Positions 5,428 to 58,852 of a stretch of DNA of 64,000 nucleotides are shown here, piece by piece. The DNA is from Actinomycetota bacterium. GTDB lineage: Bacteria > Actinomycetota > Actinomycetes > Mycobacteriales > HKI-0501. The stretch spans positions 1 through 64,000 of the forward strand of contig JAVEDU010000033.1 in NCBI GenBank assembly GCA_030840805.1. Reading direction: 5' to 3'. Every line of letters begins with the position of its first letter. Position 1 is the stretch's first letter. Under the pieces are notes generated by a model. The model did no database searches. It saw nothing but the letters and a program-made list of their open reading frames with translations, and was not told the origin of the DNA. The position numbers were made by a program, and so were the translations under genes.

Positions 5428-5512
5428 TGGTGGCGGGTGTTGGGTTCGAACCAACGTAGGCTGAGCCGGCGGATTTACAGTCCGCTCCCTTTGGCCACTC
5501 GGGCAACCCGCC
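5428..5512 (-). tRNA. tRNA-Tyr (anticodon GTA)
   Basis: The minus strand folds as a cloverleaf. The acceptor stem pairs GGCGGGT with ACCCGCC, the anticodon loop contains CTGTAAATC with anticodon GTA, and there is a long class II variable arm. The T-arm GTTGGTTCGAACCCAAC is canonical. The discriminator A at 5431 is followed by an encoded CCA (5428-5430). A strong hairpin downstream fits its terminator. Confidence 0.95.
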
Positions 5513-5631: not shown

Positions 5632-6123
5632 GTGGCGGACCCGTCGTTCGACGTCGTCAGCAAGGTGGACCGGCAGGAGGTCGACAACGCCCTCAACCAG
5701 ACCACCAAGGAGCTGTCCCAGCGGTTCGACTTCCGGGGCTCGAACGCCTCGGTCGCCTGGTCCGGCGAGGAGGGCATCGCGCTCCAGGCCGACACCGAGG
5801 ACCGCGTGAAGGCGGCGCTGGAGGTGTTCCGCGAGAAGCTCGTCAAGCGCGGGATCAGCCTGAAGGCGTTCGAGCCCGGCGATCCGCAGCTGTCCGGCCG
5901 GACGTACAAGATCACCGGCTCGATCGTGCAGGGCATCACCTCGGAGAACGCCAAGAAGATCGCGAAGAGGGTCCGCGACGAGGGCCTCAAGGGCGTGCAG
6001 GCGCAGATCCAGGGTGACCAGCTCCGGGTCACCGGGAAGAAGAAGGACGACCTCCAGGCGGTCATCGCGCTGCTGAAGGACTCCGACTTCGGCATCGCCC
6101 TGCAGTTCACGAACTACCGGTAG
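5632..6123 (+). CDS. YajQ-family nucleotide-binding protein
   Basis: A 163-residue protein that is YajQ-like along its full length. It opens (V)[19 protein letters not shown], and later has [35 protein letters not shown] and a final [11 protein letters not shown]. The family has a double RRM-like fold that binds nucleotides or RNA; some members are reported cyclic-di-GMP effectors. The GTG start at 5632 follows AAGGAAGGAG. It is monocistronic and followed by a 61-bp palindrome. The nearby GGDEF/EAL gene makes a shared cyclic-di-GMP role conceivable but unproven. Confidence 0.93.
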
Positions 6124-6133
6124 CAACCTCCGA

Positions 6134-6194
6134 GTTGATCATGGACCTTGCAACACGACACGCCGGCGTGTCTGTTGCAAGGTCCATGATCAAC
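6134..6194. repeat. 61-bp palindrome, copy 1 (bidirectional terminator-like)
   Basis: Perfectly paired 22-base arms (GTTGATCATGGACCTTGCAA CA and its complement) flank a second palindrome, GACACGCCGGCGTGTC. A copy of exactly the same length lies at 45886-45946. It separates the convergent yajQ-like and MFS genes and provides the TGA stop of the MFS gene. It probably ends transcription in both directions, or is a dispersed REP-like element. Confidence 0.9.
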
Positions 6195-7446
6195 GCCGGG
6201 TAGGCAGCGGTGCGGCGTCCGTGACCGCGTCGTGCCGGCGCAGGGCACTGCCCGGGAGCGCCGCCGCCGTCGCCGCCAGCACGGTGGCCGCGGCGCTCAG
6301 CAGGAACGCCGCCGTCGTCCCGCCCCGGCTGTCCAGCACCACACCGGCGAGCGCCGCTCCCCCGGCCGCTCCGGCGGAGGAGATCGTCGCGACCCAGGTG
6401 TACGCCTCGTTCACGGTGCCGCGGGGCGCGATGCGGGCGACGAGCGCGTTCTCCACGGTGAGCGCAGGGGCCAGCGTGAGCCCGCCGATCAGCAGCGTCA
6501 CGGCCATCACCGGGACCGTGGGCGCGAGGACCAGCGCGGTCATGTTCACCGCCACCGCGCCCATCGTCCAGGCCCACTGGGTCGGCAGCGGGGCCGCGAA
6601 GTGCCGGGTGCCGAACCAGATCCCGCCGACCACGCTCCCCACCGCCCACAGCCCGAGCAGCACCCCCGCGACGGTCTCACCGTCGGCACCGGACCGCGCC
6701 ATCGCGAACGCCGGCACGGTGACCCCGACGACGCCGAACGACATCGCCAGGCCGAACACCACCGACAGCAGCAGCGGCATCCCGGGCGCGACGGCGGGGC
6801 CCAGCCCCCGGATGCGCGGCCGGTCGGGGTGCGGTCGCCACGCCTGGGTCGCCCGGCCCAGCGCCACGCACAGCGTTCCGGCGAGCGTCAGCACCGCCGC
6901 GGCCGCGAGTGCGACGCCGGGCGACGCGATCGCCACGAGGCCGCCGACGAGCATGGGCCCGACCACGAACACGACCTCGAACACGGTCGTCTCCAGCGCG
7001 AGCGCCGGGCCCCGCAGCGCCAGGTGCGCGCCGGCCGGGTCGGTGAGGTCGGTCCAGACACTCCGCACCGCCGCGGTGAGCGGCGGCAGCACGGCGCCGA
7101 GCAGGGCCGCGGCGACGGCGATCACCCAGGCCGGCCGGTGACCCCAGACGGCGGCGAGTACCCCCGCCACCGCGACCGGGTACGCGCTCGCCGTCACGAG
7201 GAGCACCCGCGCCGGGCCGACCCGGTCGCTGAGCCGGCCGAGCAGGGGACCCGCCAGCGCGGTGGCGATGCCATACAGGGCGCTCACCGCACCTGCCGCC
7301 GCGTAGGAACCGGTCGCGTCGCGGACCAGCAGCACGAGGGCGAGCGGGGTCATCCCGATCGGCAGTCGCCCGAGGACGCCCGCCACCACCAGCGTCGGCG
7401 CCCCGGGCAGCCGCCACACGGCGGCGTACCGGCGCAGCGCGATCAC
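6190..7446 (-). CDS. MFS transporter
   Basis: A 418-residue, highly hydrophobic protein with about 12 membrane segments in two halves. The loop between segments 2 and 3 has the major-facilitator signature GPLLGRLSDRVGPARVLLV. It resembles drug- or metabolite-efflux MFS proteins, but the substrate cannot be read from sequence. The start is a GTG at 7446. The last codons run into the 61-bp palindrome, which supplies the stop codon (R-R-stop). It is a single-gene unit on the minus strand. Confidence 0.88.
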   Translation of the reverse strand: MIALRRYAAVWRLPGAPTLVVAGVLGRLPIGMTPLALVLLVRDATGSYAAAGAVSALYGIATALAGPLLGRLSDRVGPARVLLVTASAYPVAVAGVLAAVWGHRPAWVIAVAAALLGAVLPPLTAAVRSVWTDLTDPAGAHLALRGPALALETTVFEVVFVVGPMLVGGLVAIASPGVALAAAAVLTLAGTLCVALGRATQAWRPHPDRPRIRGLGPAVAPGMPLLLSVVFGLAMSFGVVGVTVPAFAMARSGADGETVAGVLLGLWAVGSVVGGIWFGTRHFAAPLPTQWAWTMGAVAVNMTALVLAPTVPVMAVTLLIGGLTLAPALTVENALVARIAPRGTVNEAYTWVATISSAGAAGGAALAGVVLDSRGGTTAAFLLSAAATVLAATAAALPGSALRRHDAVTDAAPLPTRR

Positions 7447-7497
7447 CCAGGGCCTTCCGGTAGCGGGGTTGTCACCCCACGCTACCGGCGGGGCGGG

Positions 7498-8388
7498 TCA
7501 GCCGAAGCGGGGGTCGGTCGACGCGCCGACGCCCGCCATCAGCTCCAGCCGGCGCACCCGCTCCTCCATCGGGGGGTGGGTGGCGAACAGCTTCGCCACC
7601 CCGCCACCGCGGAACGGGTTGTCGATCATCAGGTGGCTGGTGGTGGCGAGCCGGGGGTCCTCCGGGAGCGGGAGCGCGGACGTTCCCATGTGGATCTTCT
7701 TCAGCGCACTGGCGAGCCCCAGCGGATCCCCGGTGAGCCGGGCGCCGCTGGCATCCGCCTCGTACTCCCGCGAGCGGCTGATCGCCAGCTGGACGATGCT
7801 CGCCGCGATCGGACCGAGGAACAGCATCAGCATGGCCGCGAACGGGTTTCCGCCGCCGCCCTCCTCGTCGTCCGACGACCCCATCGGGAACAGGAACCCG
7901 AGGTACGCGAGGTAGGTGATGATGCTCGCCAGGGCACCGGCCACCGACGAGATCAGGATGTCGCGGTTGTACACGTGGGACAGTTCGTGGCCCAGCACCG
8001 CGCGCAGCTCCCGCGGGTTCAGCACGCCGAGGATGCCCTCGGTGCAGCAGACCGCGGCATTGCGGGGGTTCCGGCCGGTGGCGAACGCGTTCGGCTGGTT
8101 GGTCGGGCTGATGTACAGGCGCGGCATCGGCTGCCCGGCGGCGGTCGCCAGCTCCCGGACCATCTGGTACAGCCCCGGCTGCTGGGCCTCGCTGATCGGG
8201 TAGGCGCGCATCGACTTCAGCGCGAGCTTGTCCGAGAAGAAGTAGCTGAACCCGTTGACCCCGAGCGCGATCAGGAAGGCGAACGTGAGGCCGATGCTGC
8301 CGCCGAACGCGTAGCCGGCGACCAGGATGAGGGCCGACAGCAGGCCGAGCAGGGCGGCGGTCTTCAGGCCGTTGTGGTGGCGGTGCAC
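7498..8388 (-). CDS. htpX: HtpX-like M48 membrane zinc metalloprotease
   Basis: A 296-residue membrane protease of the HtpX family, which degrades damaged membrane proteins. Hydrophobic segments lie near residues 10-55. The zinc motif HELSH is at 134-138 ([11 protein letters not shown]), further membrane segments follow, and [10 protein letters not shown] supplies the third ligand Glu. I chose the GTG at 8388 over one seven codons upstream because GGAGGGAAG stands just before it. It lies 76 bases downstream of the short nuo set; htpX next to nuo or menaquinone genes recurs in actinomycetes as far as I recall. Confidence 0.93.
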
Positions 8389-44470: not shown

Positions 44471-45769
44471 TCATGCCGCGGGAGCGAGCTTCGTGAGGGC
44501 CGTGATGACCCGGTCCATCGAGTCGCCGCCGCGGGGGTCGGTGAGGTTCGCGAGCAGCTTCAGGACGAACTTCATCAGCAGCGGGTGCGGCAGCCCGTGC
44601 CGCGTGGCGGCCTTCATGACATGCGGGTTGCCGATCATCTTCACGAACACCCCGCCGAGCCGGTAGTACCCGCCGTAGGTCTCCTTGAGGACCTGCGGGT
44701 ACGCGTGGAGCGCCCGCTCCCGGCCCGGACCGGCCGGGCGGGCCAGCGCCTGCACGGCGACCTCGGCGGCCAGCTCACCCGACTCCATGGCGTACGCGAT
44801 GCCCTCGCCGTTGAACGGGTTGACCATGCCGCCGGAGTCGCCCACGAGCAGCAGCCCACGGGTGTAGTGCGGTGTGCGGTTGAAGCCCATCGGGAGGGCC
44901 GCGCCGCGGGTGGGGCCGGTCGCGTTCTCCTCGACGTACCCCCACTCCCCCGGCAGGCCGTCGAGCCACCGGGTGAGGAGCTGGCGATAGTTGGCGTCCT
45001 GGAAGGACTTCGAGGTGTTCAGCACGCCGAGGCCCACGTTCGACCGTCCGTCGCCGACGCCGAAGATCCAGCCGTAGCCGGGGAGCAGGTTCTGGCGCTC
45101 CTCGTCCCACAGCTCCAGCCACGACTCCAGGTAGTCGTCCTCGTGGCGGGGACTGGTGTAGTACCGGCGGACCGCGACACCCATCGGCCGGTCCTCGCGG
45201 CGGCGCAGGCCGAGGGCGAGGCCCAGCCGGCCGCTGACGCCGTCGGCGGAGATCACCAGCGGCGCGCGGTAGGTGGTGGGCCGCTTCTCCGGGCCCACGG
45301 TGGCCGTGACGCCCGCGACGCGACCGGCGGTGTCGAGGACCGGGCCGGTGACGTTCGTGAGCGTCTGCAGCCGGGCGCCCGCCTTGACCGCGGCCTGGGC
45401 GAGGATGTCGTCGAAGTCCCGCCGCGGGCGCACCAGGCCGTAGTCCGGGAAGCTCGCGAGCTCGGGCCACGGCAGCTCCAGCCGGAGGCCCCCGCCGATG
45501 ACGCGGAGACCCTTGTTGCGGATCCAGCCGTTCTCCGGGGTGGTGTCGATCCCCATCCGGATCAGCGACCGCACGGCACGGGGCGTCAGGCCGTCACCGC
45601 AGACCTTCTCGCGGGGGAACTCGGTCTTCTCCAGCAGGAGGACGTCGAGACCCGCCTGCGCGAGGTGATAGGCGGCGGCGGAGCCCCCGGGCCCGGCCCC
45701 GACGACGATCACGTCGGCGGCGGCATCGAGCAGGCCGGACTCGGCGGCGGGCGTCTCTACGGTGCTCAC
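44471..45769 (-). CDS. Geranylgeranyl reductase family flavoprotein (MenJ-like)
   Basis: A 432-residue FAD-dependent oxidoreductase. The dinucleotide site is [19 protein letters not shown], followed by [16 protein letters not shown] (the geranylgeranyl reductase pattern) and [20 protein letters not shown]. Related mycobacterial MenJ saturates an isoprene unit of menaquinone; the local context of nuo, menG and a polyprenyl synthase supports the same job. The GTG at 45769 follows GAGGGG. A CRP-like palindrome lies about 30 bases upstream. It reads toward the nuo operon. Confidence 0.9.
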
Positions 45770-45885: not shown

Positions 45886-45946
45886 GTTGATCATGGGCCT
45901 TGCAACAGGACACGCCGGCGTGTCTGTTGCAAGGCCCATGATCAAC
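45886..45946. repeat. 61-bp palindrome, copy 2
   Basis: Same length and structure as the element at 6134-6194. Inside the arms GGACC/GGTCC is replaced by GGGCC/GGCCC, a matched change on both sides that keeps pairing perfect. The inner GACACGCCGGCGTGTC is identical. It lies just downstream of the proline-rich mini-ORF. Confidence 0.9.
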
Positions 45947-45953
45947 GCGAGAG

Positions 45954-46106
45954 TCAGAGGACCGGGGGCGGCGGGACGTCGGGCGTCGGCGGCCCCGGCA
46001 CGGGACCGGGCTCGGGCGTCGGCGGCGGCGTGGGTGGCGGCCCCGGCGGCGGTACCGGTGGAGCGGGCGGGGGCGGTACGGGGGGCTCGGTCAGAACGGT
46101 GCGCAC
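45954..46106 (-). CDS. Proline-rich mini-protein, 50 residues
   Basis: A short frame from GTG at 46106 to a TGA at 45954. It opens VRTVLTEPPVPPPPAPPV and stays rich in Pro (about half of residues), with Gly, Thr and Val, ending VPPPPVL. A good GCAGGAGG ribosome site stands 6 bases before the start. The 61-bp palindrome follows at once and can terminate it. It could be a real small protein or low-complexity sequence that happens to be open; the position between a clear ribosome site and a terminator favours a gene. Confidence 0.45.
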   Translation of the reverse strand: MRTVLTEPPVPPPPAPPVPPPGPPPTPPPTPEPGPVPGPPTPDVPPPPVL

Positions 46107-58799: not shown

Positions 58800-58852
58800 G
58801 TGATCACCACCGCTTTTTCGTCGCTATGACGCGAATATCCGGTGGTGATCAC
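58800..58852. terminator. Bidirectional terminator between menA and paaE
   Basis: GTGATCACCACCG at 58800 pairs with CGGTGGTGATCAC at 58840-58852. The 27-base centre includes a T-run and an A-containing stretch. It lies between the two convergent stop codons. Confidence 0.8.

Follow-up and report, generated by a model that had tools for sequence, protein, structure and literature searches.

Term-seq in Streptomyces revealed long, stable hairpins with few U residues after genes (PMC12207403). The 61-bp repeat described here, F1, resembles these intrinsic terminators of GC-rich actinomycetes in being a very stable, long hairpin with a weak U-tract located after genes. The Streptomyces terminators are individual sites, whereas F1 is one sequence repeated about 76 times, and no U run follows its hairpin (mean of 1.26 T in the 10 nt past the base, consensus GGGGTGGGG, versus 3–4 reported for Streptomyces). 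In Bacillus cereus terminators, as in F1, double changes preserve stem pairing (PMC5381666); G-U is the commonest intermediate there but is not preferred in F1, and that comparison was made between strains whereas the one for F1 was made between copies. REP/REPIN elements with RAYT (PMC3733652) resemble F1 in being numerous extragenic palindromes scattered downstream of genes, in their possible mobility and in their division into subfamilies, but measure 20–40 bp, and F1 and its genome are without the GTAG/CGTC end tag and the Y1 transposase, respectively. Stem-loop sequence (SLS) families (PMC1590033) are stable hairpins near gene 3′ ends that, like F1, are concentrated downstream of stop codons and between convergent genes, and some of them are repeated (Ype, Efa, Bor); those families are from Yersinia, Enterococcus and Bordetella, while F1 is actinobacterial. 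A literature search found no description of the F1 sequence or of such an actinobacterial family.

The window is the whole analysed stretch of 64,000 nucleotides and contains two copies of F1, listed with their neighbouring genes in Table 1. Both sites, each 61 bp long, had been reported in an earlier note on this DNA and were confirmed, as was the difference between their arms, where A6145/T6183 of copy 1 corresponds to G45897/C45935 of copy 2. The same note described the pairing as perfect. The arms of 22–23 nt are indeed 100% complementary, but one base per copy is unpaired: each copy consists of a 30 + 30 palindrome and a single extra base, and is not quite a perfect palindrome because of this base and the resulting odd length. 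The extra base, left of the GACACGCC|GGCGTGTC core, is C in copy 1 and G in copy 2, which constitutes a second difference between the copies. The F1 arm was found in copies 1 and 2 alone within the window, against a chance expectation of 0.00. The two 61-mers had folding energies of −48.5 and −50.6 kcal/mol, and the extended F1 consensus one of −80.5 kcal/mol; copy 1, folded as RNA, gave z = −9.6 relative to shuffles. An Rfam search of the window returned tRNA alone, with no Rfam family matching the palindromes above its gathering score.

Table 1 Positions of the repeat copies and of adjacent genes in the window.
Feature	Position	Strand	Description
F1 copy 1	6134..6194	+	61-bp palindrome; arms 6134-6155 / 6173-6194, unpaired C6156, core GACACGCCGGCGTGTC 6157-6172
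F1 copy 2	45886..45946	+	arms 45886-45907 / 45925-45946, extra base G45908, core 45909-45924
YajQ/DUF520-family gene	5632..6123	+	ends 10 bp before copy 1; start from home-made gene caller
MFS transporter gene	6190..7446	-	TGA stop within copy 1; convergent with the yajQ gene
Probable 50-aa proline-rich ORF	45954..46106	-	GTG start after GGAGG; ends 7 bp from copy 2
FAD-binding oxidoreductase gene	44471..45769	-	next gene downstream of copy 2, same strand
F2 copy	58800..58852	.	palindrome GTGATCACCACCG...CGGTGGTGATCAC; between convergent gene ends 58793 and 58859

Copy 1 supplies the stop codon of the MFS transporter gene, as had been noted earlier: the TGA is the complement of 6190–6192, inside the palindrome. 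On its other side, an ORF starting at 5437 likewise matches DUF520 and represents an alternative start of the YajQ/DUF520-family gene. Copy 2 initially appeared to lie 230 bp from a called gene; the end of the probable 50-aa ORF, which has a good ribosome-binding site, is below the length of the automatic gene caller and was taken from its translation, is only 7 bp away. The neighbour of yajQ is an M48 peptidase gene and not an MFS gene in five relatives (G001, G002, G029, G023 and G010), which represent three families. In the window (6124–8388), an MFS gene intervenes, with copy 1 at the junction, and F1 was absent from the yajQ 3′ region in every relative whose region was read. A joint arrival of the MFS gene and the repeat was considered but is weakened by G016, a member of another family, in which an MFS homologue (50% identity) also converges with yajQ. 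An unrelated strong hairpin is located immediately after yajQ in G016, and the occurrence of different hairpins there by lineage suggests that the junction is a terminator niche, variously filled.

Counting of F1 over the 4.46 Mb genome, as the earlier note had proposed, gave about 76 copies. The arm pattern produced 77 forward and 74 reverse matches (151) versus 0 for a control pattern, and the core pattern identified 22 sites in the genome. A covariance model, R1, returned 146 strand-wise matches, a candidate-limited figure; R1 has its bulge one column off and was used as a search model only, with its scores excluded from the structural evidence. Since many contigs start or end within F1 copies (C8, C24, C35, C36, C58, C62, C86, C88, C91, C106 and C110), the repeat probably breaks the assembly, so that its copies are undercounted and the true number is probably higher.

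Both arms were recovered for 68 copies, with a length of exactly 61 bp in 68/68 and the unpaired single base retained in nearly all. The resulting consensus is cccCGCGTTGATCATGG(G/A)(G/C)TTTGCAACA-C-GACACGCCGGCGTGTC-TGTTGCAAA(C/G)(C/T)CCATGATCAACGCGggg; its outer ends, GATCATGG and the complementary sequence, hardly vary, with 66 to 68 of 68 copies agreeing at each position. Beyond the 61 bp, the flanks are C-rich on the left and G-rich on the right with no covariation, and they are unrelated between copies. DUS-like single-arm words were rejected as a description of the family, as by inspection the arms are nearly always paired and lone arms occur mostly at contig ends.

A second family, F2, has 23 or more copies with exact arms in this genome and none in 100 relatives. 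Its placement is the same as that of F1 (7 convergent, 6 co-directional, 1 divergent). Another palindrome of this genome, at L274:699-764 (ATGATCATGAGCGGATTTTCGTCGC...), has an inner part like that of F2 between outer arms of a different sequence, as though the two parts could be exchanged.

The paired arm change between the window copies had been taken as a sign of selection on the folded form, and this reading was not supported across the family. Only 58 of 188 departures from the F1 consensus were changed on both arms while 130 were one-sided, and the stem was free of mismatches in only 11 of 63 oriented copies. Unpaired arm changes are thus common elsewhere in the genome, the outcome that the earlier note had named as refuting its reading, and strict structural selection is not seen. 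Arms paired with their own partners more often than with shuffled ones (1234/1364 cells versus 1162.6, s.d. 7.8), an excess for the most part explained by a small set of subfamily haplotypes that copies have in common. Paired changes were observed at several positions. Pairs 9/47 and 10/46 covary, being Watson–Crick in 54 and 49 of 63 copies, respectively, versus 34.5 and 31.3 expected. The A-T/G-C change of the window copies is one of several arm haplotypes in the family, and several copies mix the arms of two haplotypes. As most arm changes are one-sided and haplotypes are mixed, the compensatory difference in the window is best read as a subfamily difference. Strand-specific RNA selection was also rejected, since G-U mismatches were not favoured over A-C ones when F1 copies were read on the transcribed strand (15 vs 26); the direction in which the bulge is transcribed showed no significant bias (15 vs 8).

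The earlier note had suggested a check for convergent gene ends, and 36 of the 63 classifiable copies are convergent, as expected of a terminator; 23 are co-directional and 4 are divergent, and a further 5 copies are situated at contig edges. Nearly all copies are extragenic, and most of the co-directional ones directly follow the stop of the upstream gene. Flanking stop codons were located within 30 bp of F1 in 88 of 100 cases (median 13 bp), compared to 3 of 31 for starts. These stops mostly cluster 6–25 bp from the repeat, and for 20 of the 100 the repeat provides the TGA. Relative to the remaining gaps at these loci, convergent gaps were significantly enriched (p = 1e-14), with genes called by a home-made caller and most context loci selected for carrying the repeat. 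In a small, unbiased sample of 464 kb, enrichment was observed for F1 and F2 jointly (p = 0.001), which together occupied 5/25 convergent, 4/139 co-directional and 0/47 divergent gaps of at least 50 bp. Strong hairpins of whatever sequence filled 13/19 convergent, 16/123 co-directional and 0/39 divergent gaps in this sample, with F1/F2 present in 5 of the 13, and the same positional rule was observed in a relative from another family. Because hairpins of any sequence obey this rule, F1 and F2 appear to share the niche of ordinary bidirectional terminators.

On balance, F1 appears to be a dispersed bidirectional terminator or 3′-end determinant that has no U-tract and has spread by the copying of a few master haplotypes. 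Copy number, fixed length, structure, position and the absence of a U-tract and of a RAYT gene are established; we infer termination itself from position and structure, and we also infer transcription through F1 and spread by copying. Located right after stop codons, F1 would fold into a very stable hairpin whichever strand is transcribed, and this hairpin would end transcription both ways or set the 3′ end without a U-tract. The repeat would thereby fill the niche held by single-copy hairpins at other convergent gene pairs, and copies situated on a gene end often provide the stop codon of that gene; copying of the master haplotypes would account for its dispersal. A stable hairpin shortly after the stop codon is a property of intrinsic terminators that F1 possesses, while the missing U-tract means that it fails as a canonical one. 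The long, stable, U-poor hairpins of Streptomyces make U-less termination at F1 plausible. The alternative of the earlier note, a terminator or a mobile REP-like element, was borne out as regards a dispersed palindrome at gene 3′ ends with convergent enrichment, but not as regards the GTAG and RAYT features of REP sequences.

Matches to model R1 were obtained in 21 of the 61 genomes searched, this genome included. The palindromes of the relatives have lineage-specific arms and common GATC ends, and the CGACACGCCG apex is present in several families of the order, a likeness to F1 that is partly ascertained because these palindromes were picked by the model. In an independent 400 kb of G046, the apex was found in 2 of 8 GATC-ended palindromes versus 0.014 expected. 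With genes called by a model trained on the window, the context of the relatives' copies was less clear: 37 are co-directional, 17 are convergent and 6 are divergent. Neither F1 nor F2 was matched in G001, the nearest available genome, which carries its own repeated palindrome, CGCATGGCCACCATGCGTGC, between convergent genes (L278:5686-5738 and L295:16518-16566). Exact TGATCATG-ended palindromes were essentially confined to this genome in a phylum-wide search, and nearly all other matches looked like coding DNA. The shared GATC ends and CGACACGCCG apex hint at a possible undescribed superfamily. It may tentatively be proposed, as a minority possibility, that F1 is one lineage of a mobile-hairpin superfamily across several families, in which TGATC ends and the CGACACGCCGGCGTGTCG apex would be kept by a putative recognising enzyme, arms would drift as paired haplotypes in each lineage, and copies would be retained as two-way terminators.

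A mobile hairpin element, REPIN- or MITE-like and mobilised in trans, that inserts, or survives insertion, only at gene ends and has an incidental terminator role would also explain the many similar copies of a single length with unrelated flanks, the subfamily haplotypes, the 20 repeat-derived stops, which look like landings on gene ends, and the core and GATC ends common to lineages with different arms. We nevertheless consider this explanation unlikely. The many dispersed extragenic copies are shared with REP/REPIN sequences, but assignment of F1 to that class was rejected, since the column profile contains neither a GTAG nor a CGTC tag and the conserved ends are CGCGTTGATC...GATCAACGCG. 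In this genome, which is 95% complete, a search for the RAYT/Y1 transposase (PF01797) gave 0 matches; the same search responded in 6 of 14 control genomes. Flanking direct repeats, the target-site duplication of a MITE/TIR element, were not in excess at four boundary choices. Phages, plasmids and viral contigs contained no match to the repeat, and a pair of occupied and empty sites was not found. Additionally, the clustering of stops at a short distance outside the repeat is better explained by selection for 3′ ends than by random insertion.

A role at the DNA level, in which F1 would be a site for gyrase, a nucleoid protein or cruciform formation and would take up supercoils between convergent genes while the RNA hairpin is incidental, is more doubtful still. 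The near invariance of the outer GATCATGG and its complement goes beyond structural need, G-U tolerance is not apparent and most copies lie between convergent genes, all of which would suit such a site, but most of the 23 co-directional copies lie just after upstream stops, as terminators do, and F2 shares the outer sequence only in TGATC. Mechanical upkeep of the palindrome by hairpin-templated repair or template switching, instead of selection, is very improbable, as efficient templated correction would remove the 130 unpaired changes and the unpaired base that persists in nearly all copies, even though it would fit the paired changes at several positions and the lack of preference for wobble intermediates.

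The manner in which convergent transcripts end in GC-rich actinomycetes is unsettled, and U-tract terminators are few there. As a putative bidirectional terminator, a single 61-bp sequence present some 76 times at gene ends offers naturally replicated sites for testing hairpin termination that lacks a U-tract, and it also invites the question of how terminators become dispersed.
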